Source: Adineta ricciae
Taxonomy: Eukaryota > Rotifera > Eurotatoria > Adinetida > Adinetidae
Length of the DNA: 64,000 nucleotides
Direction of reading: 5' to 3'
NCBI GenBank assembly: GCA_905250025.1
Contig: CAJNOJ010000367.1
Coordinates: 1-64,000, forward strand
In this document: piece after piece, positions 24,716 through 64,000 of the stretch
Layout: each line of letters begins with the position of its first letter
Position numbering within the stretch: the first letter of the stretch is position 1
Position numbers and translations under genes: made by a program
Notes under the pieces: model-generated
What the model was told of the DNA's origin: nothing
Databases searched by the model: none
The model's input: only the letters and a program-made list of their open reading frames with translations

Positions 24716-25645
24716 TCAATTTTCCACTAATGATTGGCGTTGACATTGAGTAAAACTCTTAAGAAAATCTTTTCGATATGTTTTCGAAGTCATAAAATAC
24801 GTGTAGAAGGGTGTGGCACAGCTTATATAAGTAAGTACTACTCCAATAATTGATAGGAAATTTTCAATTTGTATCCACTCCACACTTTTCTGTATTCCCA
24901 TTTGGTTCGTTATTGTAACTTCTAAAACAATGAATGGATAAGGAAAAATTGTTAATACATAAACAATTGCTTGAGCAAGAACTAAAAGAAATAATTGCCG
25001 ATCTCGACGATGAATAATAACAATATGATTACTCATCATTGGTCGAATACGTTTATGTAATTGAGTCATATTATGATATGATAATAAACCAAATATAATC
25101 ATTAATATTGGTGGAATCAAAGAAAGAAATACTGCTATATAAATTGAATAAATTAAATAATATATACCAATAAATGTACATGATCGATTTTCAATTGTGA
25201 CAAAGAATAATGTGGGAATCAATAGAGTATGCCAAGAAATACAAGTTATTCCAATAATTATTCGACATATGAAGGATTTATTGATTAATTGAAGATATTT
25301 ATGACGAGTAACTAATGCAAAACGATCAATACATGCGAGTATAGCAAAAGTTGTCGCTGTTTGATTCCATGTTTGAGATAAATAATAACGGAATTTACAA
25401 AGAATTAGATTTGAACTTGTTGGATTTCCATAATAAAGACCGTACAGAGATAATGAAACATTAAATGTTAAATAAAGACTATTAAATAATGCATTAAATA
25501 ATAAATACATTGCACAAGAACTTTGACGACGTCGACTAAATGAAATGATAATACAAATATTACCAAGATTACCAAAAATTAAAATAATTGGTGTTGCATA
25601 ACGAATTATTTGAAGTTGAATATAAGATAAAATTGCTGTTGACAT
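24716..25645 (-). CDS. Orphan rhodopsin-like GPCR (haplotype A)
   Basis: A single-exon 309-residue protein with seven hydrophobic segments. Family signs: ILIFGNLGNICIII in helix 1 (GN motif), a helix-3 end reading ACIDRF in place of DRY, a cysteine before helix 3 (LILCKFRYY) and one in the second extracellular loop (NRSCTFIG), and a helix-7 end ATPFYTYFMTSKTYRKDF in place of NPxxY followed by a basic helix 8. The ligand is unknown; such divergent receptors form large families in bdelloids. ATG at 25645 begins MSTAILSYIQ. The second copy at 28626-29084 is the same gene from the other haplotype, cut by an assembly junction. Confidence 0.85.
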   Translation of the reverse strand: MSTAILSYIQLQIIRYATPIILIFGNLGNICIIISFSRRRQSSCAMYLLFNALFNSLYLTFNVSLSLYGLYYGNPTSSNLILCKFRYYLSQTWNQTATTFAILACIDRFALVTRHKYLQLINKSFICRIIIGITCISWHTLLIPTLFFVTIENRSCTFIGIYYLIYSIYIAVFLSLIPPILMIIFGLLSYHNMTQLHKRIRPMMSNHIVIIHRRDRQLFLLVLAQAIVYVLTIFPYPFIVLEVTITNQMGIQKSVEWIQIENFLSIIGVVLTYISCATPFYTYFMTSKTYRKDFLKSFTQCQRQSLVEN

Positions 25646-26992
25646 TGCTAATCTGAAAATTTCTTTTTCTTAAAATATTATCAAGACAGAAAAAAGCCAT
25701 CTATGTTATAATGAAAAGATAGTGGTTTTTTCCTGGCGTTTTAATCTGACTAAAATGGATTTATGTCTCATGTTGTCATAGTAGATCGCGTGTTTAATTA
25801 AAATTACAGATCTGATACAAGATTTTCAATAGTTTTTTTTACGTATATTCCCATAAATATGGTGATTTTTTTAGGAAAGATGTGCGCATGGATGGAACTA
25901 CGTCTAGATTTATTTATTTCGCATCAATCTCATACAAGACATGTCTTTTTACACTTTCGTCCATACAAACAGAAGAGAACGCAAGAAAATGCATTGAAGT
26001 AAGGGCATACTAAAGGATAATCTATCAGATGACAAAAAGCAGTGCATGTACACAGCACACGTTGAAGAAAATTTTCTTATTTTCGCTGTCAAAACAGTCC
26101 ATAATAATCAACAATGGACACTATAGAATATTTTGTTAAATAAACTATTTAAGAAAAGAACGTTTCTTCCAAACTTTCGATAAATCTCGAACATGTTCCC
26201 TCTACTGAAAAAAGGTTATACATAGAAGTTGAGTTAAAGTTCATTCCTATTCACCAAGCTTCGACTTCTTTCTTTCTCTTTCCAGAAGAGATATTTTTCT
26301 ACGTCTTTGCTAGAATTTTTTTGTAGAAAGTAGTAGATTGAACAGTATTCTTGAGTGTGATGTGTACAAAGGTAGTAGATTATGAATTTACACAAAATAT
26401 TTTATGTATCTTACATTATGATAGTTATATAACTCAAGAAATCAGAACAAGTTGTATGCGCTTCATATCATTATTACATTGTTATTAGCGGAAAATATGG
26501 CGCAAGAAGATATGCCCGTCCGAGTGACTCCATCTTGTTAGCTACGAAAACATCGACTATACAAATAGTATTTTATACATATGAAGCGCTAGGATGAGTG
26601 TTCTTTTTAGGGTAAGTCATAAAATAAACCTTCTAACTAGTTTCTTCTGGTAACGAAATGAGTGGAGAATCGTAGTTATTCATTTTAAAAATTAATCAAG
26701 AGTGAAAGGCATAACGGAGACAGTTACGTGGAACGACTAGACGTTAGTCTGATAAGAGTTTAGAAAGTAAAATGAGTATGATTAAAAGATTGAGGCTCAT
26801 TATCGAATGATTGGATTATTTAAATGGCGTAATTCGTCTTTCTTTCGCTTGAGGAATATGAGAGATCTTATCATTTTCTTTCAGTAGAGAACCAGCGGCT
26901 ACGGCACCGCGTTACTCGTTGATTAATTTACAAAAAACTTGTCTTTGACGATCGATTTATGATTACATGTAAATATTCTTGTTACTTTTTAT
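25646..26992. other. Spacer between GPCR and NHL gene, haplotype A
   Basis: Contains no gene. It ends in a copy of the R1 dispersed repeat. Relative to haplotype B (29085-30024) it has roughly 500 extra bases between about 26040 and 26555. Confidence 0.6.
26190..26930 (+). repeat. Dispersed repeat family R1, copy 4
   Basis: The clearest relative of copy 1: TTCCCTCTACTGAAAAAAGG at the start, a CTTTCTCTTTCCAGAAGAGATATTTTTCT block, TTAGCGGAAAATATGG, GATATGCCCGTC, GGAACGACTAGACGTTAGTC and AACCAGCGGCTACGGCACCGC at the end. Confidence 0.6.
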
Positions 26993-28624
26993 CTAACAAA
27001 TGGTTTCTCCAATGACGGAGATATTCGGCATAGCAAGAGTTCCGCTAGATGGTACTCTCAAATTGTCGGTGTAGATCAATTGTTGCTTTTGTTTAGGTAG
27101 TCTGGCTTCTTTCGAATGCCGTTGGCCATATCGACGCCAGCGTCTTTGCTTTCGTGCGAGTTCTTGATAGTCACCTTTTGTTAGATCAATACCAAATATA
27201 TATTTCAGCACATCCATGGCAATTATAAATGTAGCCACACTTGATATGAAAATAATAGCGATGTAACTGAATGATCTGGAAACAGCTTGACGCACCACTG
27301 TTGTTTGTTCTATATTTTCACAATATCGACCAGAATAACTTGTTCCAAGACATTCGCACGTGAAATTCAGTAACAATGGTCGACATATACCATTATTCAA
27401 ACATGTAATATTTTTGCAGTAATTTTCTTTGGTTTCACAATAGATATTTGTCCAACCAGACTGGCATGAGCATTCAAATGTCGTCGACGACGTTTCTTTG
27501 CATTTGCCTATTCAGAATAAAATACAATGTATTTCTTCGTTCGAGAATCATTCTTACCGCTATTCTGACATGTATTTGGTTTACATAGTCGATTATCAAC
27601 TTCACATTGAGTACCATTAAAGCCAGACAAACACACACAACTGTACTCATTTATAGTTTTGTTTCCATTGATACAAGTACCGTTATTTTGACAGGGCACA
27701 AGAATATCACATGGTGCAGATGAATGATTGCAATTGGAGCCTATTTGGTTCTGATTGAGACAGGATGGTAAGGTCAAAACTGCCGAAGAAACATTTGCTA
27801 TGAACAATATTATATGAGTTCAATTCGTCCTCAAAGTGCAACTTACCCTTTTGATAAGACACAGTCGTCACTACTGTTGAGAGTTGCGTTGTAGGTTCAT
27901 CTAGAAGGAATAATTTCTTGGCGACACGCAGAATAAATTTCAACAGATATTTACCGCATGAATTATTAACAATGAAAAATTTTTTTATGCGATTGTTGAC
28001 CCATTCAGTGACATAGATATTACCATAAATATCAAAACTAAGGATCTGTGGTGCATTCATTTGATAAGATAATAAACCTGACCCGTTGCATCCGAGCAAA
28101 CATCGAAATCCAGTCGGTCCCGATACCACGATACGCTGATTACCTTTATCGACAATGTAAATATTGTCCTCGGCATCGAAAGTAATTCCTGTTGGATTAT
28201 ATAATGAGATCGTAGTATTGATTGATGTATTCCCTGCTACGGTTGTTCCATTCAATTCATCAGGTCGAAAAAGTTGAATTCGATTATTACCATAATCGGC
28301 TACATATAAATCGAAATTGATATTAACAAAAAGTCCATGTGGTGCATTTAGTTGGTTTGGTAGTGAACCAGCACAATCTCTTCCAGCTACTGTTTTAATC
28401 GAGCCTGAATTCGTATTCAATGATTTTGTCACAATTTGATGGAAACCATTCTTTGAACAATAGAGAGTATTGTTAAAATCGAGAAAGAGACCGAAACATT
28501 GTTGACCAACGAACATCACAGGTGTACTGATATTGTCTGTCAATGAATATTTTTCAACTTGACCATTCTGGTATCCATTATCGATGTAAATATCACCAGC
28601 TATCGAAACGAAAAGGCCTCGAGC
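26993..28624 (-). CDS. NHL-propeller/EGF transmembrane receptor, 3' part (haplotype A)
   Basis: Allele of the complete gene at 30025-32988. Exons read right to left: 27955-28624 (second propeller, cut by the n at 28625), 27847-27900, 27558-27779 and 26993-27507, all joined by phase-1 introns of 50-67 bases. It encodes the end of NHL propeller 2, three EGF-like modules, a transmembrane helix and a basic cytoplasmic tail. The missing 5' part of this haplotype continues at 37797-39061; against haplotype B only about 62 bases are absent between the two pieces. Confidence 0.85.
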
Positions 28625-28625
28625 N
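28625..28625. other. Single-n junction, haplotype A to B
   Basis: The sequence left of it is inside the NHL gene (equivalent to 31657); right of it is inside the GPCR (equivalent to about 25190). Gene order therefore jumps back about 3 kb at a single base. Confidence 0.85.
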
Positions 28626-29084
28626 ATTCCAAATTGTAACAAACAATAATGTAGGAATAAATAAAGTATGCCAAGAAATACAAGTTATTCCAATAATTAT
28701 TCGACATATGAATGATTTATTGATTAATTGAAGATATTTATGACGAGTAACTAATGCAAAACGATCAATACATGCGAGTATAGCAAAAGTTGTTGCTGTT
28801 TGATTCCATGTTTGAGATAAATAATACCGACATTTACAAAGAATTAGATTTGAACTTGTTGGATTTCCATAATAAAGACCATAGAGAGATAATGAAACAT
28901 TAAATGTTAAATAAAAGCTATTAAATAATGCATTAAATAATAAATACATTGCACAAGAACTTTGACGACGTCGACTAAATGAAATGATAATACAAATATT
29001 ACCAAGATTGCCTAAAATTAAAATAATTGGTGTGGCATAACGAATTATTTGAAGTTGAATATAAGATAAAATTGTTGTTGACAT
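28626..29084 (-). CDS. Orphan GPCR, N-terminal part (haplotype B)
   Basis: The first ~150 residues of the same receptor as 24716-25645, starting MSTTILSYIQ at 29084 and covering helices 1-4 with the ACIDRF helix-3 end intact. It is cut by the n at 28625 and is not a biological truncation. The open frame runs on upstream of this ATG, but haplotype A has stops there, so the same start is used. Confidence 0.8.
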
Positions 29085-30024
29085 TGCTAATATGAAAATG
29101 TCTTGGTTTTTAAATGTTACCAAGACAGAAAAAAAAACATCTATTTTATAGTGAAAAGATAATAGTTTTTTCTGACGTTTTAATCTGACTGAAATGGATT
29201 TATGTCCCATGTTGTCCTTGTAGATCGCGTGTTTAATTAATTATTTTTTAATTAAAATTACAGATGTGATACAAGATTTTCATTATGTCTTTTTTACATA
29301 TATTTTTATAAATATGACGATTTTTTAAGGAAAGATGTGTGCACAGATGGAACTACGTCTAGATTTATTTATTTCGCATAAATTATATCAATCTCATACA
29401 AGACATGTCTTCTTATACTTTCGTCCATACAACAGAAGAGAACGCAAGAAAATGCATTGAAGTAAGGGCATACTAAAGGATAATCCATCAGATGAGAAAA
29501 AGCATTATATCGCATGCACACCCGCACCCACACCCACACCCTCACAGAAGCATCGACTATACAAATAGTATTCTAAACATATGAGGCGGTAGGATGGATG
29601 TTCTTTCCAGGATAAATTATAGAATAAACCTTCTTATCTAGTTTCTTCTGGTAACGAAATGAGTGGAAGATCGCCAGTTTGAAAGCAACAATGAAAAGAA
29701 ACGTAGTTATTCACTTTAAAAGTTAAACAAGAGTGAAAGGCATAGCGGAGACAGTTATGGGAACGACTAGACGTTAGTCTAATAAGAGTTTAGGAAGTAA
29801 AATGAGTATGAATAAAAGATTGAGGCTCATGATCAAATGACTGGATTATTTAAATGGCGTAATTCGTATTTCTTTCGCTTGAAGAATATTAGAGATCTTG
29901 CCATTTTTCTTTCAGTAGAGAGCCAGCGACTACGGCATCGCGTTACTTGTTGATTAATTTACAAAAAAACTCGTCTTTGCCAATCGATTTATGGTTACAT
30001 GTAAATATTCTTGTTGATTTTTAT
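29085..30024. other. Spacer, haplotype B, with truncated R1 repeat and telomere-like insert
   Basis: Parallel to 25646-26992 but shorter. The right half of R1 (GGGAACGACTAGACGTTAGTC, AGCCAGCGACTACGGC) is retained at about 29540-29955; the left half is missing and a CACCC-rich stretch stands at the breakpoint. Confidence 0.6.
29523..29550 (-). repeat. Telomere-like G-rich repeat at a deletion breakpoint
   Basis: The plus strand reads CACCCGCACCCACACCC and on; the complement reads TGTGGGTGTGGGTGCGGGTG. As I recall, TGTGGG is the telomeric unit reported in bdelloids. It sits exactly where haplotype B lacks about 500 bases present in A. Confidence 0.45.
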
Positions 30025-32988
30025 CTAACAAATGGTTTCTTCAATGATGGAGATATTCGGCATAGCAAGAGTTCCGCTAGATGGTACTCTCAAACTGTTG
30101 GTGTAGACAAGTCGTTGCATTTGTTTAGGATGTTTGGCTTCTTTCGAATGCCATGGTCTATATCGACGCCAGCGTCTTCGCTTTCGTGCGAGTTCTTGAT
30201 AGTCACCTTTTGTTAAATCAATACCAAATACATATTTCAGCACATCCATGACAATAATAAATGTAGCCACACTTGATATAAAAATAATAGCTATGTAACT
30301 AAATGATCTGGAAACAGCTTGACGCACCACTGTTGTTTGTTCTCTATTTTCACAATATCGACCAGAATAACTTGTTCCAAGGCATTCGCATGTGAAATTC
30401 AATAACAATGGTCGACATATACCATTATTCAAACATGTGATATTTTCACAGTAATTTTCTTTGGTTTCACAATAGGTATTCGTCCAACCAGACCGGCATG
30501 AGCATTCAAATGTCGTGGACGATGTTTCTGTGCATTTACCTATACAGAATAAAAATACAATGTATTTCTTCGTTAAAGAATCATTCCTACCGTTATTCTG
30601 ACATGTATTCGGTTTACATAATCGATTATCAACTTCACATTGAGTACCATTGAAGCCAGACAAACACACACAACTGTAATCATTTACAGTTTTGTTTCCA
30701 TTGATACAAGTACCGCTATTTTGACAGGGCATAAGAATATCACAGGGTGCAGATGAATGATTACAATTGGAACCTATTTGGTTCTGATTGAGACAGGATG
30801 GCAAGATCAAAACTGTCGAAGAAACATTTGCTATGAACAATATTATATGAGTTTAATTCATCCTCAAAGTGCAAATTACCCTTTTGATAAGACACAGTCG
30901 TCACTACTGTTGAGAGTTGCGTTGTGGGTTCATCTAGAAGAAATGATTTCTTGAGGAAACGCAGAGTAAATTTCAATAGATATTTACCGCATGAATTATT
31001 AACAATGAAAAATTGTTTTATGCGATTGTTGGCCCATTCAGTGACGTAGATATTACCATAAATATCAAAACTAAGAATCTGTGGTGCATTCATTTGATAA
31101 GGTAATAAACCTGACCCGTTGCATCCGAGAAAACATCGAAATCCAGTCGGTCCCGATACCACGATACGCTGATTACTTTTATCCACAATGTAAATATTGT
31201 CCTCGGCATCGAAAGTAATTCCTGTTGGATTGTATAATGAGATCGTCGTATTGATTGATGTATTCCCTGCTACAGTTGTTCCATTCAATTCACCAGGTCG
31301 AAAAAGTTGAATTCGATTATTACCATAATCGGCTACATATAAATCGAAATTGATATTAACAAAAAGTCCATGTGGTGCATTTAGTTGGTTTGGCAGTGAA
31401 CCAGCACAATCTCTTCCAGCTACTATTTTAATCGAACCTGAATTCGTATTCAATGATTTTGTCACAATTTGATGGAAACCATTCTTTGAACAATAGAGAG
31501 TATTGTTAAAATCGAGAAAGAGACCGAAACATTGTTGACCAACGAACATCACAGGTGTACTGATATTGTCTGTCAATGAATATTTTTCAACTTGACCATT
31601 CTGGTATCCATTATCAATGTAAATATCACCAGCTATCGAAACAAAAAGGCCTCGAGCAGTTGTGTAATTGCCTGATATTCTTCGCGTAACATTTGTGCTA
31701 TTACTCGACCAAATTAGTATGTCACCTGTATCTCGATTAACTGTATAAATTGTATTATTTCTATCGATAAAGAGACCAAAATTTTGAGTACCAGTCGTTT
31801 CGTTTGTTGAAAAAGTGATTCCATTTGGATTCCAGCTTGCCGATGAGCAGAATTTTAGTCGATTATAGGAAACAACTAAAAGCACATGATAGTTTGTATT
31901 ATACAGATATCGACTAGTACGTTACCATTCGAAGGAATAAAGTTTATTGAATTTGATTGTACTGAAGTTATTTTTGTTGTTGTTAGTGTTGTTGTTGATG
32001 TTATTTCTGTGTAATTACACGAACTATTGATCAGATTGAATTTCTGAATTCGACTATTACCATTGTCAACAACAAATAGGTTTCCAAAACTATCAAAACC
32101 GATGGAATATGGAGAAGACAAGCGAGACGGTGTTGGGCCAGAACTATTGCATCCAGCTATACATCGATAACCGTTGGGTCCTGATCCAACGATGCGATTA
32201 TTACCTTTATCTGCAATGAAAAGATATCCGTTTGCATCCAGTGTAACTCCAGTTGGATTTTTCAATGGAATTGTTGCCATCAATGACTTATTTCCAACGA
32301 GTGTAGTTCCATTCAATTCTCCTGATCGAAAAAACTGAATACGATGATTGTTTGTATCTGCGACATATAAATTATAGCTCGTATCGACAAATATTCCACT
32401 GGGACCGCTCAAAGTAAAAACCGTACTGCCGGATGCACCTGTTCCAGCTACAGTTGTTAAACTAGTACTATTCGATGACATAGTCACTATACGATGAGCA
32501 GTACTCATCGAACAATACATCATATTACGATCATCGATAAAAATACCATAGCATTTATTACATGTGTACATTACTGGAATGCCAACTGTTGAATTTATTG
32601 TCCATTTATCTATTCGACCGGTAAGATTGTCACTGTCAACATATATATAACGAGAGTAAGTAACAAAAAGGCTCATTGGTGTAGACAGATTCGCAAGGGA
32701 AAGTGTCGTTAGTGTGGAATTGCCTTGTGGCCATATGACAATTCGGTTATGTTGTTGATTAGCAACATAAATTGTGTTGTTGTTATCAATAAAAATTGCG
32801 TATGGCTTTGAACCTACGGTAATATTACTGGCAAACGTTGTGGCGTTCAGGTTCCATGTCGCATTTGAACAGAACTTTAGTTGATTGAAAGAAACTGATG
32901 AAGAAGATACATGTTCAATGATGAGGAGAACTATCCAGACAATCGTATTGCTCATGGAAAATAGAAATGCTCTGTTCTCTTTTCGCAA
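30025..32988 (-). CDS. Two-propeller NHL/EGF type I membrane receptor, complete (haplotype B)
   Basis: Five exons: 31926-32988, 30988-31875, 30880-30933, 30591-30812, 30025-30539. Introns are 50, 54, 67 and 51 bases, every one phase 1, giving 913 residues. A signal peptide precedes SSSSVSFNQLKFC; the start may be the second Met (MSNTIVWIVLLII). Exon 1 holds one propeller of NHL repeats (GIFVDTSYNLYVADTNNHRI, GVTLDANGYLFIADKGNNRI, SIGFDSFGNLFVVDNGNSRI). Exon 2 starts with the same NRLKFCSSASWN motif and holds a second propeller. Exons 4-5 encode three EGF-like modules, then a transmembrane helix (YIAIIFISSVATFIIVM) and about 70 basic cytoplasmic residues. NHL propellers and EGF modules bind proteins or glycans outside the cell; the ligand is unknown. 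The symmetrical phase-1 exons explain how the propeller was duplicated. Confidence 0.85.
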
Positions 32989-33393
32989 ATTTTGACCGTG
33001 ATAAACAAAAGTGCATCTGTCCTTAAAGTTTCAGTCTTTCTTCATTACTAACTAAATAGAACAAATAACAACTAGTAGAATAAAGGAAAAATGGATATTT
33101 ATTCTCGTTCATATTTTAGTAGGAGACCATACAAAAAAACATACTTCCGATATGTATTATGTAAAATGTCATCAATGGAATTTTCTTGTTTGCATTTGTT
33201 TCAAGAATATATACATGATCTTTCACTTTCAAACAATGAATAATTAACATTGAGAAGAGAAAATCAATGTTAAGACTTAATTCATTCCATCCACAATATA
33301 TGGATTTATCGATAATATTTACGACAGGGTAAAGGTTACTTTTATACATGAGAACAACATCAAAATTTAATTTTATTGGATGCAAAATATAAC
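32989..33393. other. Spacer upstream of NHL gene (haplotype B)
   Basis: Promoter region of the minus-strand NHL gene and upstream region of the plus-strand remnant that follows. No distinct element found. Colinear with 39062-39469. Confidence 0.45.
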
Positions 33394-34250
33394 ATGTTGG
33401 TAGTCTTCTCGTTTTTCGTTGTTATAAAATCAACTATTTCCGAACAAACAACCATTGATATTCATTCGCACGATCATCAATGTTGATAAATTGAATCTCG
33501 AAATCCACATCTATTTGATTTATCAGAAAATATTGATTATATTTCAACACCGTCTATGACGAAACAAAAGCTTGCGTATTTTTATTGTATAAAAGATCTT
33601 TATCACGACTCCGTTCGTTAAATTCAATTGATTTGTATCTACATTTTCTCGAAGAAAAAAGTCAAGAAACCCTAACAATCTATTCATTTGATCGATTGAG
33701 ATGCGTTGTTTCCCATGTCGTTCGTAAACACTCTTCCTTTCAATTATTATTAGAAGAACGTGAAAAGAATCTATCGGTTGCAATTGTCAACAGAAGTCAA
33801 AAGTAAGGCGAATGTTTTATAAGAATGAAATTATTCTATACTGAATTTTCTATAAAAAAAATAACTAATTCCGTTTCATTCTTTGCAACTGACAACAATT
33901 GTATACATATGCGTGTAGTCAACACTATATAATTCATATTTTTCGAAGGTTGACACACGCACGATTGTCTTTGCGTTGCTTATTTTTCAATTCAGCATAT
34001 ATTGGTAATAACAAAATGATCACCGCAATAACTCTCGTGTACTTGGCTTTGCTCTGATAACAACCAATCAAGGGTTCTCTATTAATGCTAATGAGAGATG
34101 TTCCAGTTTTTGTGGTGATAATTGTACAAAGTACATTCCTTGCAGTGTTTGCAATCCGTATCTTCTTTGTGACAGAGCTTGTGAGTATATCCGTTTTATT
34201 ATCAGTAAAAAATTCTTAACATTCTGTGTATCATTCATTTCTTTTCTGCT
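33394..34250 (+). pseudogene. Small secreted cysteine-rich protein, apparently decayed (haplotype B)
   Basis: ATG at 33394 gives a signal-like MLVVFSFFVVIKSTISEQTT then DIHSHDHQC and stops. In the same frame beyond the stops, NPHLFDLSENIDYISTPSM is shared with haplotype A. At about 34095-34187 a cysteine-rich segment reads NERCSSFCGDNCTKYIPC then SVCNPYLLCDRACEY. Frames and splice sites do not join cleanly, and a 129-bp block (33577-33705) is absent from A. The coding signal rests on conservation of these peptides between haplotypes. Confidence 0.35.
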
Positions 34251-34332
34251 TTAGAAAATTGTTAAGCACTAAACTTTTACCGTAGTTAGTTCTGTTCACA
34301 AGACAAAAAATATTCTGATTTTTGAACGAAAA

Positions 34333-36193: not shown

Positions 36194-36422
36194 ATGGCGT
36201 GTGCTTCAACAACGCATAAAAAGTAAGTTTTTTTTTATATGACTCGATACGATTCTTGATATACTATCTATGCAAGAGAAAAAGAACATTTATAGATAAA
36301 CAACTACGAGATAGTTTCTTTTTCACCTTTTCATTATTTCAAGGTGATATCAACCGATCACTCACACCTTCATAAAATAAAAGAATATAGTTAAAAGGTC
36401 ATCAGTTTATTTAAGTGACTAA
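36194..36422. other. Spacer between phosphatase and glycosidase genes (haplotype B)
   Basis: Short 5' region of the phosphatase gene and 3' region of the glycosidase gene. No other feature seen. Confidence 0.5.
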
Positions 36423-50794: not shown

Positions 50795-51116
50795 ATGTGG
50801 GACGACAAACTGAAAGTCCAATATACAAATCTACTTACTCAACCTCATTATACTCTTTTTTTCTTTTGATGACATCTTAAATAATCAGTTGTGACAAGCT
50901 TGTCGAAACGTGAAATCTTTTTTAATGTTAAAAAAAGTACTCTTTCGACATAAATAACTCAACGTTAATCTGTGACGTACATCCCTTTCATTTGATAAGT
51001 GTGATTAGCTAATTCTTGTTGAATAACACGACAGATGTTCTACAACGATATAACAGTTCAAGCAGATCCTTTTTAACATCGTGTAAAAACTTTATCTTGT
51101 TCTATAGAAAAACAAA
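50795..51116. other. Spacer between the two receptors (haplotype B)
   Basis: 322 bases, AT-rich, presumably 3' end of receptor 1 and promoter of receptor 2. No other feature. Confidence 0.5.
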
Positions 51117-52133: not shown

Positions 52134-52305
52134 ACTGAAATTGACCTAAAAATCGTTCCAGCTGTGAATGTTGTGTTTAGTAATTAGAAATAAGCAATTA
52201 CGCTGTCAACAGCATATGTTGTCAGATGGTGCAAAAGATTACGAGATTATTAGTAAAAGTAATTATGTTTCTTTTTTATTTCTTAAGTCGTGTTACAATT
52301 GCGAG

Positions 52306-52954
52306 TTATAATTTAACGCATATGTTCGGTAGAGGTCCAGCATTCCATGTTTTGAAAGGATATTCATGAGAATTGCCACAGTTTTTCCACATCCAAGTAG
52401 CGGGATCAATTTGCGATATTACTTCACCACCTATTTTATCGTAAATATGTCTCATAGCTGGATTTGTTGTCTGCGCGTGTGCATATTTGAAACCTTTGAT
52501 CTCGCGAGCATATTTACAGGTCTCGCATATTAAATAACTACTCACACCTTTACCTTCTTCGCCTATTTTCGTTGCGTGCAAAAGAAAATGTATTAATGAA
52601 TTTCGAGTTAGTTGCCCTGTCGAGATCAGCAATAAAATCTTCATGTGCAATGCCAGTTGTGTTTGTTATTGGACAAATCGATTTAAGATACAGATCTGTA
52701 GACAGAATACATTCAATGATTTCATTGGTGGAACGTTTTCGAACAAGTAATGAAAGTTCTTGACTAAGCACAGATAAAGCCAATGGTAATGCAATTTTTT
52801 CAAAGTGCACTTCAGCTGATATTCCTTGAAAAACAGTCATGGGATTCGAGTTTGCAAATGCTTCAGCATTCTCTTCTGAACATAATACTTCGACAATGAA
52901 ATCATCATTTACGACGGATTCTTGCTTACAAACAGGGTCTCGCACAGTTTCCAT
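52306..52954 (-). pseudogene. GNAT-type acetyltransferase, frameshifted allele (haplotype B)
   Basis: Allele of the intact gene at 60092-60793. Two deletions are visible: an in-frame loss of 24 bases (about 52868, between AGC repeats) removing eight residues after SEENA, and a 29-base loss (about 52625, between CTGTCG repeats) that shifts the frame after DLDR. The downstream acetyl-CoA-binding half remains readable in the other frame (TKIGEEGKGVSSYLI to the end) but cannot be reached. Unless splicing rescues it, the allele is null. Confidence 0.8.
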
Positions 52955-54443
52955 GGGTAAATCTTTGAGCAAAAGAATTCCAAGATGATATGAAAGTCTC
53001 TTTTTTTTCTCAAAACAAATAGAATACCATGTTTGCTTACTTATACTTATAGAAAAGTAAGTTTATCTATGCCTTTTCGTTGTGTACTCAACTTTTACAA
53101 TATTTGCGATCATCTTCACCTTTTGAAGGTGGTGATAGTCGAGGTGCAATGCTGTATGTGAATTTTGTTGGCACAAACAGATTTCAATTTCAAACTTGTT
53201 TTTGCTTACAATTCGTATAGTTTTTCAGCATACAAAAATTTTCGATGTCAATAACAGATATAACTTTGCTAGTTATCTCTATCGAAGCAATCTTTCATTG
53301 CAAAAGAAGATAAGGTCTCAAGAAAGTTGTTTCGTATATGTTGGACTCTATGGTATTTTTTTTCTGCATAGAACGAAAACGAGAGTATATTGACGTAAAC
53401 TACTTATGTCATTAGTGACAATGTGCGCTGTTTACCTTTTTGAATGCATCATCGAGATACAACACTTGTTGCAGTCGTCGTAATCGTGGTATAATGCGTT
53501 AATGAAATACCTTATTAACATTTCTATGCATTTTTTAAACAACTACTGAAGAAAACGACAGTGAAATTCGCAGTACGATTGATAACATCAATTGTGATGG
53601 AAGACACAATCTGAAAGAATGCCACGGTATGCAGCAGCATCCCAAATCATTTTGACTGTCGGTATGATTGGTTCGATACTTTTCAGAGTTTATAGCAAAA
53701 AAAGTCTTCATATAGGAAAATGTCCACTTTTTCTGGATCACAAGGATTGAACGTTTAAACTAATAATTGAATATGTTAATCGTTAACAATTCTTGATTGC
53801 AAATATATTCTCAGATCATGTGTCAGTTGCACTATGAAAACAAAATTCAGAAAGAGGATCATCACATCCCATTGTTTTCCGAACATTCAAATAAATGATA
53901 ATCAAAATGAACACTTTTTATCTAGTTTTAATTTGCTATTCGTATTTCTATCAATCCTATATTCAAGTGACTATATGATGCGTAAGTGAACGCCTTTAGA
54001 ATCTTCTTGAACATCTGTAGTTGAGTCCGAAACAAAATGAGTCATTTCAGCTTCATCTCTTTTACATATGTAAACAAAATAATACTCGCTAATGATAAAC
54101 ACTAGTCAATATTCACGAGTGGGGACTATAGTTATCGCATGAACATGATGAAATATCAATGTGTGAATATTTCACAAAACAAAAACTGCCGTTAATACAG
54201 GTATTGACTTTTTTTTATTTACAGCGGAAGAAGTTTCAAACGTGTATCTCGTTCCCTAAGCTAATCTCTCTGATAAATGACTACTAGATCGAAAAATCTA
54301 TAACTATCGTTACAATATGACGCTCGCATAGCCCAAAAGTTCGTTTAGTATTGATCATGACACACATGACGATATGTAAATAATCATATTCAGCGAACCA
54401 TATGACACACGTAATTTATTTACAGCTAAAACAAACACATACG
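52955..54443. other. Intergenic (haplotype B)
   Basis: 1.5 kb without a supported gene, colinear with 60794-62371. Short peptides conserved between haplotypes (for example TIRIVFQHTKIFDVN at about 53203) occur on the plus strand but do not extend into a gene. Confidence 0.45.
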
Positions 54444-55104
54444 ACGTCGCAAGTATGAATATTCGTATTTTTGATCATTCGCTTATGTATATTATCTATC
54501 AATACAGATGTTGATTGTGAACAGAAAAATATCACTGTTCACCTTCCAAACATCCTCTTATCTAATACATACAATAATGAATGAATTGCTACATGATTTT
54601 ATCGAAAACAAGGTATTCAATTGAATAGTCATAAAACAGTACATCTAACAATTCATGGTTATACCTACGATCACACGTACTGGGTGTTTCCTTATCAGTC
54701 ACCGAACTATTCATATGTTAACTATGCCATTCAGAATAGTGATGAAGATATTGTTGTTTTAATTATCGATCGAATTGGAATTGGTTTAAGTTCAAAGTCC
54801 CAGGCCACTGACATAATCATCGATGTCAATGTCAATGTTATTTCTCAGTTAATAACAAACCTACAGTTCAATTCACAGATATTGTACTCGTCGGTCATTC
54901 ACTTGGAACATTGATTTCATGGAAAATACTTTCTGCATCATGCATATAATCGATATGTTCGTGGTTTCATTGCCGCCAGTTGGTTGCATCTATGCAGTTG
55001 TGACTCTATCCTGTCCTTCAAACGCTGGTCATAATATTAACTTACACTCAAATGCTAAAGACTGGTATCAAAAGGCACTCGATTGGACTCAACAACACTT
55101 TTGA
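54444..55104 (+). pseudogene. Alpha/beta-hydrolase (lipase-like), broken allele (haplotype B)
   Basis: Colinear with 62372-63283. The start codon is ACG instead of ATG, TGA stops fall in the frame (four codons on, and twice near 54580-54600), and an internal deletion shifts the frame before the nucleophile elbow. Readable parts include KTVHLTIHGYTYDHTYW (oxyanion region) and the natural C-terminus AKDWYQKALDWTQQHF, which haplotype A has lost. Confidence 0.75.
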
Positions 55105-55406
55105 ATAAATGAACATTCTTTTTTTCCTATTAATGTTTAATCAGTTTTGCTTCTGCAGTATATTTTTTAGAAAAGGATGAGGTGATGGTGATGATGTCGT
55201 AACAACGATGTTTGTTTCTCATTCAAATGTTCGCATTAGTCTATTTACGAAGATTCTGCACACTATAGCCAATCAGATATTTTCAACCTCGATGTGTTTA
55301 AGATTCAAAGGAGGAGAAAAGAAAGAGAATATCTCGATGTAAGCAAGTCTGATCGTTATCTTTGTATAGAAAAGATCTGCGTTCTTTTCACATTTCATCA
55401 GCGAGA
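55105..55406. other. Spacer before GH31-like gene (haplotype B)
   Basis: Presumed promoter of the GH31-like gene. Nothing else seen. Confidence 0.5.
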
Positions 55407-55557
55407 ATGTTCGTTCTACTGATTCTTCTTTGTTGTCCGTTGGTTATCTCTTCGACGACATTACCCTATGCGGAATGGGCTCATTATCATATGATTTGGT
55501 TATCATCGGACCGTTCAAATCAAACGAATATTCAAACAATGTACGATACTTACAATC
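55407..55557 (+). CDS. GH31-like glycosidase, first 50 codons (haplotype B)
   Basis: Signal peptide MFVLLILLCCPLVISSTTLP followed by YAEWAHYHMIWLSSDRS; cut by the n at 55558. Identical in design to the longer piece at 63568-64000. Confidence 0.7.
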
Positions 55558-55558
55558 N
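55558..55558. other. Single-n junction, haplotype B to A
   Basis: Left side lies in the GH31-like gene; right side lies in the LRR part of the RING gene (equivalent to 47910). The order jumps back about 7.6 kb. Confidence 0.85.
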
Positions 55559-55877
55559 AGATTTAGGCGCTCAATCATTAGCAGAAGTGATTCGCTATAA
55601 TCGAACATTGAAAGATCTTCATATTGGTTATAATAATATCGAACATAGAGGAATCGAAGTTTTATTTAATGCAATGGATAACAAAACTTCGATAGAGGTG
55701 CTAGGTTTGGCTGGTAATCGCTTGGATGATAGATGTCTCGATAGTCTTGAGAAGATGTTGAGTGCTAATAATAGATTACAACGGCTTGATCTATCTGAAA
55801 ATCAGTTTTCATTGAATGGGAAAACAAGATTATTACGAATTGGTTATACGAAGAAAGGTTTTAAAATGAGTCTGTGA
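55559..55877 (+). CDS. RING/LRR protein, C-terminal LRRs (haplotype A)
   Basis: The last 105 residues of the LRR domain, from DLGAQSLAEVIRYNRTL to the stop, nearly identical to 47911-48228 (SANNRL for GVNNRL, SLNG for SLDG). It belongs with 45100-45378. The continuous open frame from the preceding signal peptide into the LRRs is a junction artefact. Confidence 0.85.
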
Positions 55878-57647
55878 CTTTGAATTGTTATATAATCACG
55901 AAATATTTCAATAAATCTAGAAATCTTATGTGAAGAGACATGTCATCACGTATTCTGTAGATCGGTTATATTGAATTTGTGAATTAAAACGAACGAAAGG
56001 AAATTTATAGTGTTTTTTGCTTATTTGGAGCTTAGACGTAATTGTGAGCGAGTGTTACAAGGAATACATGTTCTTTTTTCATAGTCATTGCAGTCAACTA
56101 AGATTTTCAAACAATGATTATTTATCAAGAAAATCTGCCATAGTATATATTGATGTTTAAAGCAGTAATACCATCGCCTCAATTTGGTCCCAATCTACAG
56201 GTAATTGGAATAAAAAGATACAAAGCTAAGGTTGCACTCTTGTGATAAGAGTTCGCTACTCACACTTGGTTTATTAGCACGCTTTTGAAGTATCTGATGA
56301 ACGTTTTTGCGTCAGACACACTTATCTAGAGCCATAACGAAGTCGAATAGGCGTTATTGATATTACTAGATGATTTCTAATCGAATCATCAATGCGTATA
56401 TCGTATATGTAAAGAATCATTAGCTCAGATAATTTACCAGATCATCAGTATTAATTGAGACCACCATTAAACTGTAGAACTCATTGCAGCAATAAAATCT
56501 TTCTACTTTATACTAATACGTTAAATTTGATAATCAACTTCTGGACTACTTCTGTAAAAATGGGATTCTTTTCAGAACTAATGTTTTCAATTTCAGTTCT
56601 TTCACTGAGAAGATGTTGTACCACTAGTTAATATGTCACGCTATCTCATAAGCTATTACCTGTACTGACTCTCTTCACCATCTTTTAAAACTCAAGAAAA
56701 AGAGATCACACGTATCTGTATCCCAGATGCGCCGCAACAGGTAAACTTTATACTTATCGTGCGACGAGAACATTCTCTTCTCTTATACAGTCTTCCAACG
56801 CACTGCTATTCAAAATGATCGACAAATCAATCGCCTGCGGATTAAACTAAAACGAGACTCAACATCTTTCGCACCCACGATACCAGTAATGTTGTATCTT
56901 ACATAAATTGTACGTCCATATCGCATACTACCGTTCCGATAGTATACACATCTTTCATATTTTATTTTTCAACCATTTACCAAACTTACTACTCTTCCTC
57001 AGTAAAATAAACTCTATCTTTCAATTATTCCGACATTCCACCCTTCATCACAAATTGTTTTCCCTCACACGCACTCTCTATCTCACACATTGTCGTCACA
57101 CAAACAATGATACATCCGACCATCTATTATTCTCACAACCAAGCTAACATCATCACACCCTCACCCTTTGTCTGCATCTTGCAATCGTTAAAGCAACACA
57201 CGAAAACAGATATGGTCGGATGAATCTGTAATACACACTCAAATAAAGATTTGGAGAAAAAAACCTGGAGTATCACTATAGTAACATTCACATACGCTCG
57301 ATTCAACATTTTTCTGTTAGTTGTGTTTTTTGTTCTATACAGTCCTGCAGATAGATAATAAGAATCTTCTTTTTAGCATCAATAATTATTCTCATTACTC
57401 TATGCTTCATATACATACATACAACATCTTCATTCTTTTCAACATAGGATAAATCCTGTTTTTTTCACATTTGCCTCGATGAACTTCTTGCAACATCAAT
57501 GCCATATATCCACCCACTGAGCACAGTCGAAATAAACTTTAATGACATTCATTAGTCATCAAAAATATCTCACATAAATAGTCATTTATAACATGCACTA
57601 GAACGCATCGCTTGCGAGAATCTTCTTCAAAATCAAAAATCCTCAAA
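55878..57647. other. Intergenic (haplotype A)
   Basis: 1.77 kb without a supported gene; colinear with 48229-49876 with insertions and deletions, for example about 200 extra bases after 55930. Confidence 0.5.
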
Positions 57648-58556
57648 ATGAACGACAGACAAATTATAATTCTCTTAGTTTATATCAAAATCATTCTTCT
57701 CGGTTTTACTTCGATTGGATCGATTCTTTATTCGTTACCATTCATTTTCATTCGACGTTTTCATACTCCACTTCATTTTCTCAGTCTGAATGTGAGCATC
57801 ACTATCTTCGTCTGTGCTTCGTTCTGGGCGATCTATTACTTTATGAGTACATTCCATGCGGATATTCTATGGACAGAGAAATCATGTCTAGTCATACTCT
57901 ATCTGCAGACATTGGTCGTTTGTCAATTCATTTATGCTCTCTGTGTCGTTTCGTTGAATCTACTTTGTGCTATTCGGTATCACAGAAGTGTTGTATTTCG
58001 AAAAAAGAAATGGGCAATTATGTGTATCGTTGTTCAATGGTTATTTGCAGCAATCATACCGTTACCTCAATTTGGTTCCAGTCTCGAAGTAAAGCGAACG
58101 ATTTGATTAACGAAATCATTTTCTATCTTGTATTTATTTTAGCATTGCTTCATATCCGGTCTTGAACTTAACTATCAAATCTATGTTCTGTTCATTGTTG
58201 GAGTTCTACCAGGAATATTCTTAGCAATATCTAATAGTCTTATTTTCTATTCTGTTCATCGTTCAACACGACGTATTCAAGCTGAAAATCAAGGAGGAGA
58301 TGCAGTAGGATTGGTGTCTAGTCAGCGAGATACTCGATTATTGAAACATATGCTATTTATGTATGTGATCTTCTTTTGTGGTTGGATACCAATTTATATC
58401 ATTGGTGTGATTAATTGGGATGGAAATGGTATTTCATATATTGTTTTTCATGCACTTCTCATCTTACCTGCGTTAAGTCTTGTTATTGATCTGATTGATT
58501 TATTCTTATATAGTCATGAATTGCGTACCTATCTCTTCAAGAAAACACGTAATTAA
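57648..58556 (+). CDS. Orphan seven-helix receptor 1 (haplotype A)
   Basis: Exons 57648-58088 and 58143-58556, 284 residues, allele of 49877-50794. A C-to-T change turns a CAA codon into TAA and removes the last three residues (QTN). Otherwise intact with the same cysteines and VVIDLIDLFLY-type helix 7. Confidence 0.8.
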
Positions 58557-58904
58557 ACAAATTAAATGTGGGACGATAAACTGAAAGTCCAATATACGAA
58601 TCTACTTACTCATCCTCATTATATATAATCTTTTTATCTTTTGATGACGTCTTAAATAATCGCTTGTGACAAGCTTGTTGAAACGTGAAATCTTTTTTAA
58701 TGTTAAAAAAGTACTCTTTCGACATAAATAACTCAACGTTAATCTGTGACGTACATCCCTTTCATTTAATAAGTGTGATTAGCTAATTCTTGTTGAATAA
58801 CACAACAGATGTTCTACAATGATATAACAGTTCAAGCAGATCCTTTTTAACACCGTGGAAAAACTCTATCTTGTTCTATAGAAAAACAAAATCTTACATA
58901 TAAC
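58557..58904. other. Spacer between the two receptors (haplotype A)
   Basis: 348 bases colinear with 50795-51116; an insertion (about CTTACATATAAC) precedes the start of receptor 2. Confidence 0.5.
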
Positions 58905-59921
58905 ATGAGCACCCTCGCTGAAAAAGTTGACCAAACGACAATTTATATTCAACCGATTCATTTTACACTTGCGATCATCACAAATCTATTGAATATATGT
59001 GTTCTATCCACTCGAACACTTCGATCATCAGCATGCACTCATTATTTTCTCACTTTTTCGTTTTCAAGCATTCTTTATACATGTATTCTATGTCCAACAC
59101 AAATCTTACGACGTTACTCTATCCTCTGGATCAACACATCTATTGGCTGCAAATTAAACCCTTATCTGCTATTTGTTTTACCTATGCAAGCAAATCTAAT
59201 GCTGACTCTAGCAGCGTTCGATCGTTTTTGTTCAAGCTCAACATCAATCAAACTTCGCGCAATCAGTAACGTTCGAATCGCACAATATTTTATCGTATGT
59301 ACTTCACTTCTATGTGCACTCTACATGTTACCTATGATGTTCATCTATGAATTCAATTCTACGCTACAATTATGTGTACAACTGTCAACTATGCCAACAA
59401 CAGTATATGCTTTTAGCCAAATTGCGATTTATTATATTTTAGCACCAGTCATCATGATAATATTCGGTGTTTTAACGATATTGAATATTCGACGACAACT
59501 TAAACGAATACAACCGATAGCAGGTTCGAGTCAAAATCGTCGAACGGAAAGTCAACTAGCGCGAATGTTAATCATACAAATTACTATTCATATGGTTATT
59601 TCATTACCATTTGGTATTATATATCTAATAAATACATTTATACCATCATCTCGAACACTGTTTATCATTGGGATTCGATTAATATTTGTCGCATGGCAGC
59701 AATGTGATTACTTTGTTCCATTCTTTCTCTACACCCTTTCTGGTGGTGTTTATCGAGAGAAACTTTTTCGAATGTTCAAAATCAAATCTCACGAAAAGAA
59801 CGCCATTCATACGCTGACAATAAAACCACCTTGTATTACTCAGTATGGCCATTCTGATCGTCGGAAATCTGCGTTACCAGTAGCAACAGCAAGACTCAAT
59901 ACTGCTGTTGGAGAGTTCTAA
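58905..59921 (+). CDS. Orphan seven-helix receptor 2 (haplotype A)
   Basis: 338 residues, same length as its allele at 51117-52133, all motifs kept (AAFDRFCSS, CDYFVPFFLY). Substitutions are conservative in the helices and more frequent in the cytoplasmic tail. Confidence 0.85.
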   Translation: MSTLAEKVDQTTIYIQPIHFTLAIITNLLNICVLSTRTLRSSACTHYFLTFSFSSILYTCILCPTQILRRYSILWINTSIGCKLNPYLLFVLPMQANLMLTLAAFDRFCSSSTSIKLRAISNVRIAQYFIVCTSLLCALYMLPMMFIYEFNSTLQLCVQLSTMPTTVYAFSQIAIYYILAPVIMIIFGVLTILNIRRQLKRIQPIAGSSQNRRTESQLARMLIIQITIHMVISLPFGIIYLINTFIPSSRTLFIIGIRLIFVAWQQCDYFVPFFLYTLSGGVYREKLFRMFKIKSHEKNAIHTLTIKPPCITQYGHSDRRKSALPVATARLNTAVGEF

Positions 59922-60091
59922 ACTGAAATTGATCTAAACATTATTCTAGCTATGAATGTTGTATTTAGTAATTAGAAATAAACAATTCCACTGTCAATAA
60001 CATATGTTGTCAGATGGTTCAAAAGATTACGAGGTTATTAGTAAGAGTAATTATGTTTCTTTTATTTTTTAAGTCGTGTTACAACTCCGAG

Positions 60092-60793
60092 TTATAATTT
60101 AACGCATATGTTCGGCATAGGTCCAGCAGTCCATGTTTTGAAAGGATATTCATCAGAATTGCCACAGTTTTTCCACATCCAAGTAGCAGGATCAATTTGC
60201 GATATTACTTCACCACCTATTTTATCGTAAATATGTTTCATAGCGGGATTTGTTGTCTGTGCGTGTGCATATTTGAAACCTTTAATCTCGCGAGCATATT
60301 TACAAGTCTCGCGTATTAAATAACTACCCACACCGTTACCTTCTTCGCCTATTTTCGTTGCGTGTAACAGAAAATGTATTACTGAATTTCGAGTTAGTTG
60401 CTCTGTCGCATTGAAATATTCATAACTCATTCTGTCGAGATCAGCAATTAAATCTTCATGTGCAATGCCGGTTGTGTTTGTCATGGAACAAATCGATTTA
60501 AGATACAGATCTGTAGACAAAATACATCCAATGATTTCATCAGTGGAATGTTTCCGAACAAGTAATGAAAGTTCTTGATTAAGCACAGATAAAGCCAATG
60601 GTAATGCAATCTTTTCGAAATGCACTTCGGCTGATATTCCTTTGAAAACAGTCATGGGATTCGACTTTGCAAATGCTTCAGCGATCAATCTTGCACATGC
60701 ATAAGCATTCTCTTCTGAACGTAATACTTCGATAATGAAATCATCATTTGCGACGGATTCTTGCTTACAAACAGGGTCTTGTACAGCTTCCAT
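60092..60793 (-). CDS. GNAT-type N-acetyltransferase, intact (haplotype A)
   Basis: A 233-residue single-exon protein; the ATG at 60793 (MEAVQDPVCK) was chosen because the frame upstream has no other ATG. Residues 20-130 read as the N-terminal GNAT half (RLIAEAFAKSNPM, then LVRKHSTDEIIGCILSTD). The acetyl-CoA loop is TKIGEEGNGVGSYLIRETC, an R/QxxGxG-type motif, followed by KGFKYAHAQTTNPAMKHIYD, the usual strand/helix pair with a tyrosine. It could acetylate a small amine or protein; the substrate is unknown. It is convergent with receptor 2, with about 170 bases between the two stop codons. Confidence 0.8.
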   Translation of the reverse strand: MEAVQDPVCKQESVANDDFIIEVLRSEENAYACARLIAEAFAKSNPMTVFKGISAEVHFEKIALPLALSVLNQELSLLVRKHSTDEIIGCILSTDLYLKSICSMTNTTGIAHEDLIADLDRMSYEYFNATEQLTRNSVIHFLLHATKIGEEGNGVGSYLIRETCKYAREIKGFKYAHAQTTNPAMKHIYDKIGGEVISQIDPATWMWKNCGNSDEYPFKTWTAGPMPNICVKL

Positions 60794-62371
60794 GAGTAAA
60801 TCTTTGAGCAAAAGAATACCAAGATGATATGAAAGTCTCTTTTATTCTCAAAACAAACAGAATACCATGTTTGATTACTTATACTTATAGAAAAGTGAGT
60901 TTATCTATGCCTTTTCGTTGTGTACTCAACTTTTATAATATCTACGATCATCTTTACCTTTTGAAGGGGATGATAGTCGGGGGTGCAATGCTGTATGTGA
61001 ATTTTGTTGGCACAAACTGATTTCAATCAGAGAACTTGCTGGTATTTCAATTTCAAATATGTTTTTGCTTACAATTCGTATAGTTTTTCAGCATACAAAA
61101 ATGTTCGATGTCAACAGATATAACTTTGCTAGTCATCTCTATCGAAGCAATCTTTCACTACAAAAGAAGATAAGATCTCAAGAAAGATGTTTCGTATATG
61201 TAGGAACAGAACGAAAAAGAGAGTATATTGACGTAAACTACGTATGTCATTAGTGGCGATGTGCGCTGTTTACCTTTTCGATTGCATCATCGAGATACAA
61301 CACTTGCTGCGGCATTCGTCGTAATCGGGATACATCGAATGGATCAAATGATAGTGTTTCGTGAAAATCGTGTTCTTTGAACAAAGAGAATGACAAAAAT
61401 GTGTGTTATAATACGTTAGTGAAACACGTGATTAACATTTCTATACATTTTTTAAAACAACTACTGAAGAAAACGACAGTGAAGTTCACAGAACGATTGA
61501 TAACATCAACTGACTTGGAAGACATGATCTGAAAAAATGCCACGGTATATGCAGCAGCATCCCAAATCATTTTGACTGTCGGTATGATTGATTCGATACT
61601 TTTCAGGGTTTATAGCAAACAAGAATTAAATCATTTGTATATGCAAAAAAGTCTTCATATAGGAAAATGTCCACTTTTTCTGGATCACAAGGATTGAACG
61701 TTTAAACTAATAATTGAATATGCTAATCGTTAATAATTCTTGATTGGAAATATTCTCAGATCGTGTATCAGTTGCACTATGAAAACAAAATTCAGAATGA
61801 GGATCATCACATCCCATTGTTTTTCGAGCATTTAAATAAATAATAATCAAATTGAACACTTTTTATCTAGTTTTAATTTGCTATTCGTATCTCTATCAAT
61901 CCTATATTCAAGTGACTACATGATGCGTAGGTAAACGCCTTTAGAATCTTCTTGAACATTTGTAGTTGAGTCCGAAAACAAAATGAATCATTTCAGCTTC
62001 AGAGAGAATCGAATTTAAGTTTTATTTCATCTCTTTTACATATGTAAACAAATTAACACTCGATGATGATAAACACTAGTCAATATTCGCGAGTGGGGAC
62101 TATAGTTATCGCATGAATATGATGAAAAATCAATGTGTGAATATATCACAAAAGAAAAATTACTGTTAATACAGGTATTGACATTTTTTTATTTACAGCG
62201 GAAGAAGTTTCAAACGTGTATCTCGTTCCCTCAGCTAAACTTTCTGATAAATGATATTAGACCGAAAAATCTATAACTATCGTTACAATATGACGCCCAC
62301 GTAGCCCAAAAGTTTGTTTAGTATTGATCATGACACACGTAATTTATTTCCAACTAAAACAAACACATACG
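60794..62371. other. Intergenic (haplotype A)
   Basis: 1.58 kb without a supported gene, colinear with 52955-54443, with several short insertions. Confidence 0.45.
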
Positions 62372-63283
62372 ATGTCGCAAGTATGGATATTCGTATTTTT
62401 GATCATTCGCTTATGTATATTCTCTATCAATGCAGATGTTGATTGTGAACAGAAAAATGTCACTGTTCACCTTCCGAACATCCTCTTATCTAATACATAG
62501 AATAATGAATCAATTGCTACATGGTTTTGCCCGAAACAAGGTATTCAATTGAATAGTCATAAAACAGTACATCTGACAATTCATGGTTATACCTACGATC
62601 ACACGTACTGGACATTTCCTTATCAATCACCGAATTATTCATATGTTAACTATGTCATTGAGAATAGTGGTGGAGATATTGTTATTTTGAATATCGATCG
62701 AATTGGAATTGGTTTAAGTTCAAAGCCCCTGGCCACTGACATAACCGTCGATGCAAATGCCAATGTTATTTCTCAATTAATAACAAATCTACATAATGGA
62801 ATGTCTCAAAATGTTCAATTCGTAGATATTGTACTCGTCGGTCATTCACTTGGAACATTGATTTCATGGAAAATAGTTTCTCAATCTGCATATAATCGAT
62901 ACGTTCGTGGTTTCATTGCTACCAGTTGGTTGCATTTACCAAATCCAATAGGGACAACTGCAGTTGTGACTCTATCCTATCCTACACAACTTGATCCAAA
63001 GTTTAGTCAACAATCACTACCTATCGGCTATCTCACGACAAATCGATTGAATCATACACGTCAGTATCTATTCTATAATATCAACGATACTGATCCAAAT
63101 GTCATTCAAGTCGACGAAGAAACGAAACAAACTGGTACAGCAGGCGAAATCGCGACATTTGGATTAGCTTATTCTCCAACTGTAACACTGGTGATGCCGA
63201 GCAATATTTCTGTGTTAGTTGTCGTCGGAGGACACGTGACACGATATTTCCGCGCGCGACATTACAGCGCATGTGCAAAATGA
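62372..63283 (+). pseudogene. Secreted alpha/beta-hydrolase (lipase-like), one premature stop and altered C-terminus (haplotype A)
   Basis: ATG at 62372 opens a signal peptide (MSQVWIFVFLIIRLCIFSIN) and continues DVDCEQKNVTVHLPNILLSNT, where TAG at 62498-62500 stops it. The frame is then open to 63283. Hallmarks: LTIHGYTYDHTYW (oxyanion-hole HG), LNIDRIGIGLSS, and the nucleophile elbow VGHSLG. The C-terminus changes abruptly after NISVLVVVGGH into GC-rich sequence; the natural end, seen in haplotype B (AKDWYQKALDWTQQHF), is lost. Whether the TAG can be read past or removed by splicing is not evident, so I call it a pseudogene. Confidence 0.7.
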
Positions 63284-63358
63284 GGGTGAGGGCGCCGCGA
63301 AAGTGTCGTTTATACACTACGCGCCGAAATGTCATGCGCGGTAATGTCGTAGAACCGT
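63232..63358. mobile_element. Small GC-rich inverted-repeat insertion
   Basis: A GC-rich island absent from haplotype B and replacing the end of the hydrolase. GCGACATTACAGCGCATG (about 63257) pairs with CATGCGCGGTAATGTCG (63333-63349), and nested arms around CGATATTTCCGCG and CGCGAAAGTGTCG also pair. It contains GAGGGTGAGGG. Probably a miniature foldback element; ends approximate. Confidence 0.5.
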
Positions 63359-63567
63359 CGTAACAACAATGTTTGTTTCTCGTTCAAATGTTCGAATTAG
63401 TCTATTTACATAGATTCTGCACACTATAGCCAATCAGATATTTTCAACCTCGATGCGTTTAAGATTCAAAGGAAAAGAAAAGAAAAAGAATATCTCGATG
63501 TAAACAAGTCTGATCGTTATCTTTGTATAGAAAAGATCTGCGTTCTTTTCACATTTCATCAGCGAGA
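63284..63567. other. Spacer before GH31-like gene (haplotype A)
   Basis: Holds the end of the GC-rich insertion and the presumed promoter of the next gene. Confidence 0.5.
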
Positions 63568-64000
63568 ATGTTCGTTTTACTGATTCTTCTTTGTTGTCCG
63601 TTGGTTATCTCTTCGACGACATTACCCTATGCGGAATGGGCTCATTATCATATGATTTGGTTATCATCGGACCGTTCAAATCAAACGAATATTCAAACAA
63701 TGTACGATACTTACAATCGCTATCAAATTCCGTTTGGTGCAGTTAATATTGATTCACATTGGTCGACAAATTTCAATACATTTGTATTTGATCGAAAGAA
63801 ATTTCCATCCATACGTCAAATGCTCGACGAATTTCGAGCAAAAAACACTCACATTATCTTGTGGATGACTTCATTCATTAACATTGATTCACCGAATTAT
63901 TCCTACGCGCAAGAGCATGGATTTTTGTTCAACAAAACACTTCATTGGTGGCACGGTAATGGACGTTTGTTGAATTACTTTAATCCTCAAGCTGTAGATT
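63568..64000 (+). CDS. Secreted GH31-like alpha-glycosidase, N-terminal part (runs off the window)
   Basis: ATG at 63568 starts a signal peptide (MFVLLILLCCPLVISS). The following sequence has the GH31 barrel entry: IPFGAVNIDSHWST, FVFDRKKFPSIRQMLDEF, NTHIILWMTSFINIDSPNY, EHGFLF, WHGNGRLLNYFNP. This matches the order of GH31 alpha-glucosidase/xylosidase motifs in which a substrate-site aspartate (NIDSHW) is followed by FPD-type and W-x-T-P-type blocks. Catalytic acids lie beyond the window. There is no long N-terminal domain before the barrel, which is shorter than usual for GH31. Confidence 0.7.
   Translation, partial: MFVLLILLCCPLVISSTTLPYAEWAHYHMIWLSSDRSNQTNIQTMYDTYNRYQIPFGAVNIDSHWSTNFNTFVFDRKKFPSIRQMLDEFRAKNTHIILWMTSFINIDSPNYSYAQEHGFLFNKTLHWWHGNGRLLNYFNPQAVD

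Follow-up and report, generated by a model that had tools for sequence, protein, structure and literature searches.

Repeated segments in a scaffold of Adineta ricciae are very probably two haplotypes joined in alternation

Organization of the scaffold

The first 64,000 nucleotides (the window) of a 91,510-bp scaffold of the bdelloid rotifer Adineta ricciae (contig CAJNOJ010000367.1) contain successive segments that repeat the gene order of the segments before them. The window includes five single Ns, at positions 4725, 28625, 37796, 45379 and 55558, and one gap of 52 Ns at 19136–19187. The pieces delimited by the joins are numbered from 1, which ends at 28624, to 8 (85908–91510), and the left flank is counted as two more pieces. 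The pieces are described on the forward strand.

Piece 1 starts at 19188 and ends inside an NHL gene. Its duplicated part (25193–28624), assigned to a putative haplotype A, is matched by 28632–31657 in two blocks with identities of 90.6% and 92.4%; according to piecewise BLAST, the sequence restarts 3.4 kb back at the join 28625, where open reading frames cross the N. Piece 2 (28626–37795), assigned to a putative haplotype B, corresponds to piece 1 in 28632–31657 and to piece 3 in 31720–37795, and the 62-bp stretch in between (31658–31719) lacks a counterpart between pieces 1 and 3. Piece 2 ends in a so-called glycosidase gene, of which piece 3 (37797–45378, putative haplotype A) carries an uncut copy. 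At the join 37796, the restart lies 6.1 kb back in piece 2, and 37797–43741 repeats 31720–37795 with identities of 93.0% and 93.8%. At the join 45379, the restart lies 1.7 kb back in piece 3, and 45380–47105 repeats 43659–45378 with an identity of 95.3%. Piece 4 (45380–55557, putative haplotype B) contains an 804-bp stretch (47106–47909) without a counterpart between pieces 3 and 5. At the join 55558, the restart lies 7.6 kb back, and 55559–63718 of piece 5 repeats 47910–55557 in six blocks with identities of 84.5–97.8%. Piece 5 (putative haplotype A) runs from 55559 to the end of the window and on to scaffold position 69748; its end (63611–69748) is repeated by scaffold positions 69750–75892 with an identity of 95.1%.

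Beyond the window, further restarting joins made of a single N are located at scaffold positions 69749, 77233 and 85907. From 28625 onwards, every single-N join of the scaffold, seven in all, restarts the preceding piece, and none of the restarts is located in continuous sequence. At six of the seven joins, the 300 bases on each side have a partner across the join, and at 85907 the downstream side alone has one. None of 227 random points is matched on both sides in this way (250 points were drawn, and those near Ns were dropped). The repeated blocks are direct copies on one scaffold.

No restart was found at the single N at 4725 or at the 52-N gap. A 54-bp tandem array with seven copies in register occupies 4311–4796, and the N at 4725 lies near its end; this N probably marks a short repeat across which two pieces were joined.

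Open frames reach into or cross the N at all four restarting joins of the window. The frames 27707–28684, 28593–29240, 45295–46482 and 55353–55877 continue across single Ns and join parts of different genes; at 55558, an open frame of unidentified start passes into a leucine-rich repeat (LRR) frame. Such frames could end up annotated as chimeric proteins. An earlier note on this sequence had described four single-N junctions, each cutting a gene and restarting its order 1.7–7.6 kb back, and the alignments and frames reproduce this description. Its statement that every breakpoint lies at an N holds for all seven joints; however, the converse fails, because 4725 is an N without a restart.

Two interlocking series of pieces

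When each piece is read against the one that intervenes, the pieces form two linear series, 1-3-5-7 (A) and 2-4-6-8 (B). The offsets between the boundaries of pieces i and i+2 are, for the six steps in order, +62, −83, +804, −108, −44 and +747 bp. A comparison of all 90 ordered pairs of the ten pieces for exact end-to-start overlaps of 12–399 bp identified three overlaps, with lengths of 83, 108 and 44 bp, all of which connect a piece i to piece i+2. Piece 2 ends with the same 83 bases with which piece 4 begins, and piece 6, from scaffold position 69750, begins with the last 108 bp of piece 4. Contigs with exact overlaps belong together, yet in this scaffold another contig, several per cent divergent, lies between them, which makes the overlaps the sharpest evidence for two series. 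Under a crude model in which the ends fall uniformly, the observed tiling has a combined chance of approximately 1e-9. Eight of the 13 piece edges open with at least 80 bases that are identical in both copies, compared with 2.6% of positions, although edges sharing a boundary are not independent. Series A is ~34.7 kb and series B ~33.0 kb long, compared with 66.3 kb of scaffold. Judged from the sequence, a locus of about 33–35 kb fills ~66 kb.

The tiling and the exact overlaps bear out the proposal of the earlier note that the pieces fit two linear series. In the NHL gene, series A was said to end at the equivalent of 31657 and to resume at the equivalent of 31720, as is seen in the alignment; in the so-called glycosidase gene, series B was said to end at 37795 and its next piece to start about 80 bases earlier, where 83 identical bases were measured. 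The further claim that alternate pieces abut agrees with the overlaps at three steps but not with the steps from 3 to 5 and from 6 to 8, which leave 804 and 747 bp, respectively.

A 461-bp unit occurs four times in the scaffold with ~95–96% identity (66571–67031, 72711–73171, 82229–82689 and 89008–89468), and is read as two loci, each present in both series.

Divergence and copy number of the repeated segments

Substitutions between the copies amount to 6.9, 5.3, 4.2, 7.1, 4.7 and 3.8% in six blocks aligned end to end; a seventh alignment (13.8%) contains a non-homologous tail and was set aside. The number of synonymous substitutions per synonymous site (Ks) in five coding segments is 0.097, 0.140, 0.099, 0.072 and 0.105, and the ratio of nonsynonymous to synonymous substitution rates (dN/dS) is 0.11–0.27; one of the segments, located at 49.8 kb, is an open reading frame not checked in Pfam. 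In the A. ricciae genome paper, Ks is 0.14 ± 0.036 for homologs and 1.27 for ohnologs, and the median divergence of top intragenomic matches is 4.55% (PMC5916493). The sequence divergence of the copies is consistent with the level published for homologs of A. ricciae. A recount of 43741–43830 against 45462–45551 confirms two mismatches in 90 bases, the difference previously counted by eye. The guanine and cytosine content of the window is ~35%, and the value given in the genome paper is 35.6% (PMC5916493).

The genome set searched for further copies comprises 130.46 Mb in 1033 contigs, whereas the published reference is listed with 174.5 Mb in 4,125 scaffolds (PMC5916493). Because it is smaller, the searched set is either partial or another version. 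Five queries of 1.6–2.5 kb (30000–31600, 43659–45378, 33800–36300, 51000–53000 and scaffold 64500–66500) each gave exactly two matches above 90%, namely the query itself and one full-length match at 92–95%, both in this scaffold. The next long matches are, in the same order, 69, 83, 75, 69 and 71–76% identical, and all closer ones are at most 91 bp long. A third copy of the 42.3–44.8 kb region is located on contig C171 with ~83–84% identity and is a more distant relative. Queries longer than 13 kb were unreliable for demonstrating absence, as they left their own place unlisted and one of them missed the 95% match at 45380–47105; they were not used for that purpose.

Searches for a second haplotype of the left flank, which is not duplicated in the scaffold, did not find one. 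The query 5000–19000, subject to the same unreliability, gave a 2.6-kb match at 89% on contig C694 and other matches shorter than 1 kb, and the query 19460–25192 gave mostly repeat-like matches. Repeats in 19936–25126, of which 75–94% identical copies are present on many scaffolds (C292, C744, C93, C254 and others), are likely transposable elements. An inverted repeat at 14779–15230 has 122-bp arms that are 98% complementary and ~450-bp copies dispersed on many other scaffolds, and looks like a small mobile element.

The protein encoded at 42899–44755 matches a 763-residue A. ricciae protein with 100% identity across 98% of the query; this A. ricciae protein aligns to piece 3 with a single mismatch apart from gaps. 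The encoded protein has many close bdelloid homologs; however, it has no Pfam match and no solved structure related by sequence search, and "glycosidase" is the label of the earlier reader. Two further proteins resembling those of A. ricciae, recorded on contigs of 16,653 bp and 16,026 bp, hint at another assembly in which the haplotypes are kept apart.

Single-N joins in other scaffolds

Ten 20-kb stretches of other scaffolds were drawn, one of which consisted entirely of Ns; two of the nine readable stretches lack single Ns. The nine stretches contain 17 single-N joins, nine of which restart: eight within 12 kb (matches flank the join in four cases and lie on a single side in the other four) and the ninth 13 kb back. 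One weak match (67–71%) among the eight remaining joins was not counted. In one stretch, an exact 84-bp overlap connects pieces i and i+2. Because some single Ns, such as that at 4725, lack a restart, a single N is a warning of false duplication and not a proof.

Origin of the alternating pieces

The two interlocking series, the exact overlaps, the homolog-level divergence and the presence of both close copies in this scaffold indicate that the repeated segments are two homologous (allelic) copies of one A. ricciae locus, the contigs of which were scaffolded alternately. The probability assigned to this reading of the sequence is approximately 0.96, and the apparent tandem duplications are very probably artefactual. 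The earlier note had reached the same conclusion from the sequence and had warned that copy-number statements drawn from the scaffold would be wrong; the series, the overlaps between alternate pieces, the divergence and the copy number support the conclusion, under which the warning also holds.

The alternation may have originated as follows. Wherever the two haplotypes are identical over more than its word length, a short-read assembler would have broken the contigs of both. If such a shared stretch was kept in just one haplotype, the 62-, 804- and 747-bp stretches would be explained. Scaffolding with mate pairs, long reads or transcripts would then have chained contigs of both haplotypes. 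Because neighboring pieces overlap in their true position, the estimated gap would be negative, and a single N would be written. The scaffolder SSPACE writes one n for a negative gap estimate. The A. ricciae pipeline included Platanus, SSPACE, GapFiller, SSPACE-LongRead, L_RNA_Scaffolder, SCUBAT and Redundans (PMC5916493); the match of species suggests that the present scaffold was produced by it.

Several observations weigh against the alternation of two haplotypes. The single-N rule of the scaffolder was not found in the literature looked up for it. Three of the six steps between pieces i and i+2 lack an overlap and leave gaps of 62, 804 and 747 bp, and a genome search with 47106–47909 and scaffold positions 78616–79362 did not find a second copy of either stretch. 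These two longer counterparts may have been lost by collapse of an identical stretch, or their contig may be absent from the searched set. The end of piece 7, from ~84.0 kb, fails to align with the end of piece 8. Eight of the 17 sampled joins, as well as that at 4725, have no restart within the stretch read.

Serial genuine tandem duplications of ~1.4–8 kb on one chromosome would account for copies that are direct repeats on one scaffold, and the joints could be gaps because repeats assemble poorly; tandem repeats can cause breaks between contigs. However, seven successive events would each have to start −108 to +804 bp from the end of the previous one, and alternate units of a true tandem duplication would not be continuous, whereas exact overlaps connect pieces i and i+2, and no other pairs, at three of the six steps. 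Moreover, all seven joints fall on an N and none lies in continuous sequence, and the Ks values are those of A. ricciae homologs. Four copies of each test stretch would be expected if both haplotypes had been assembled, but there are two, a point that haplotype collapse would weaken. The tiling, the overlaps, the allelic Ks and the copy number led to the rejection of tandem duplication, which is very improbable.

Since bdelloids are described as degenerate tetraploids (PMC5916493), the interleaved copies might instead be ohnologs from an old tetraploidization. This explanation was rejected on Ks, which is 0.07–0.14 here compared with 1.27 for A. ricciae ohnologs, and the more distant copy of one region sits apart on C171; it is even less probable than tandem duplication. 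From sequence alone, a mixed culture of two individuals or strains would look the same as one clone with two alleles; however, the divergence fits that published for homologs within the genome, and in each of the five test stretches there are two close copies instead of three or four, which leaves a mixed sample as improbable as ohnologs. It is also very unlikely, on a par with tandem duplication, that the chain is real and that one chromosome of an ameiotic animal contains linked homologous segments in direct alternation. If it were real, the chain would not be separable into two haploid sets.

Relation to known artefacts and implications

The pattern of the scaffold, two haplotypes presented as successive copies, is an instance of heterotype false duplication, an artefact already described, in which an assembly shows the two alleles as paralogs that share a scaffold and are separated by gaps (Ko et al. 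2022, PMC9516828). The copies of the A. ricciae locus differ by 3.8–7.1% with a Ks of 0.072–0.140, compared with the published 0.14, which corresponds to allele-level divergence. As in the cases described there, both alleles are on one scaffold, separated by gaps, and gene counts are inflated; by contrast, the pieces form a chain of eight alternating units with single-N joins, not an isolated pair (PMC9516828).

The A. ricciae genome paper reports two linked homologous blocks, both tandem, and breaks at scaffold gaps that are possibly scaffolding errors (PMC5916493). The present scaffold resembles these linked homologs of Adineta in having homologous blocks on one scaffold and many breaks at scaffold gaps. 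Unlike the linked homologs of A. vaga, most of which are palindromes (PMC5916493), the paired blocks are direct, and the sole inverted pair of at least 100 nt in the window is that at 14779–15230. The published scan considered linked blocks with five or more homologous genes (PMC5916493). The blocks described here hold fewer than five genes, as judged from open reading frames, and therefore the scan would probably miss such short interleaves. No paper describing such alternation for A. ricciae was found among those listed in literature searches, as judged from titles and the starts of abstracts.

The assembly of A. ricciae, an intensively studied asexual animal, seems to contain many joins that present alleles as tandem duplicates, with seven in this scaffold and nine of 17 sampled elsewhere. 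Each such join makes the affected locus about twice as long, allows open frames to continue into a different gene, and would raise the counts of gene families above their true values. A simple screen would flag single-N joins after which the sequence realigns shortly upstream, and then test for exact overlaps between the ends of pieces i and i+2. Homologs of A. vaga linked on one scaffold were once taken as a mark of ameiotic evolution. Single-N joins that often yield linked homologs are thus relevant to the debate on meiosis in bdelloids.

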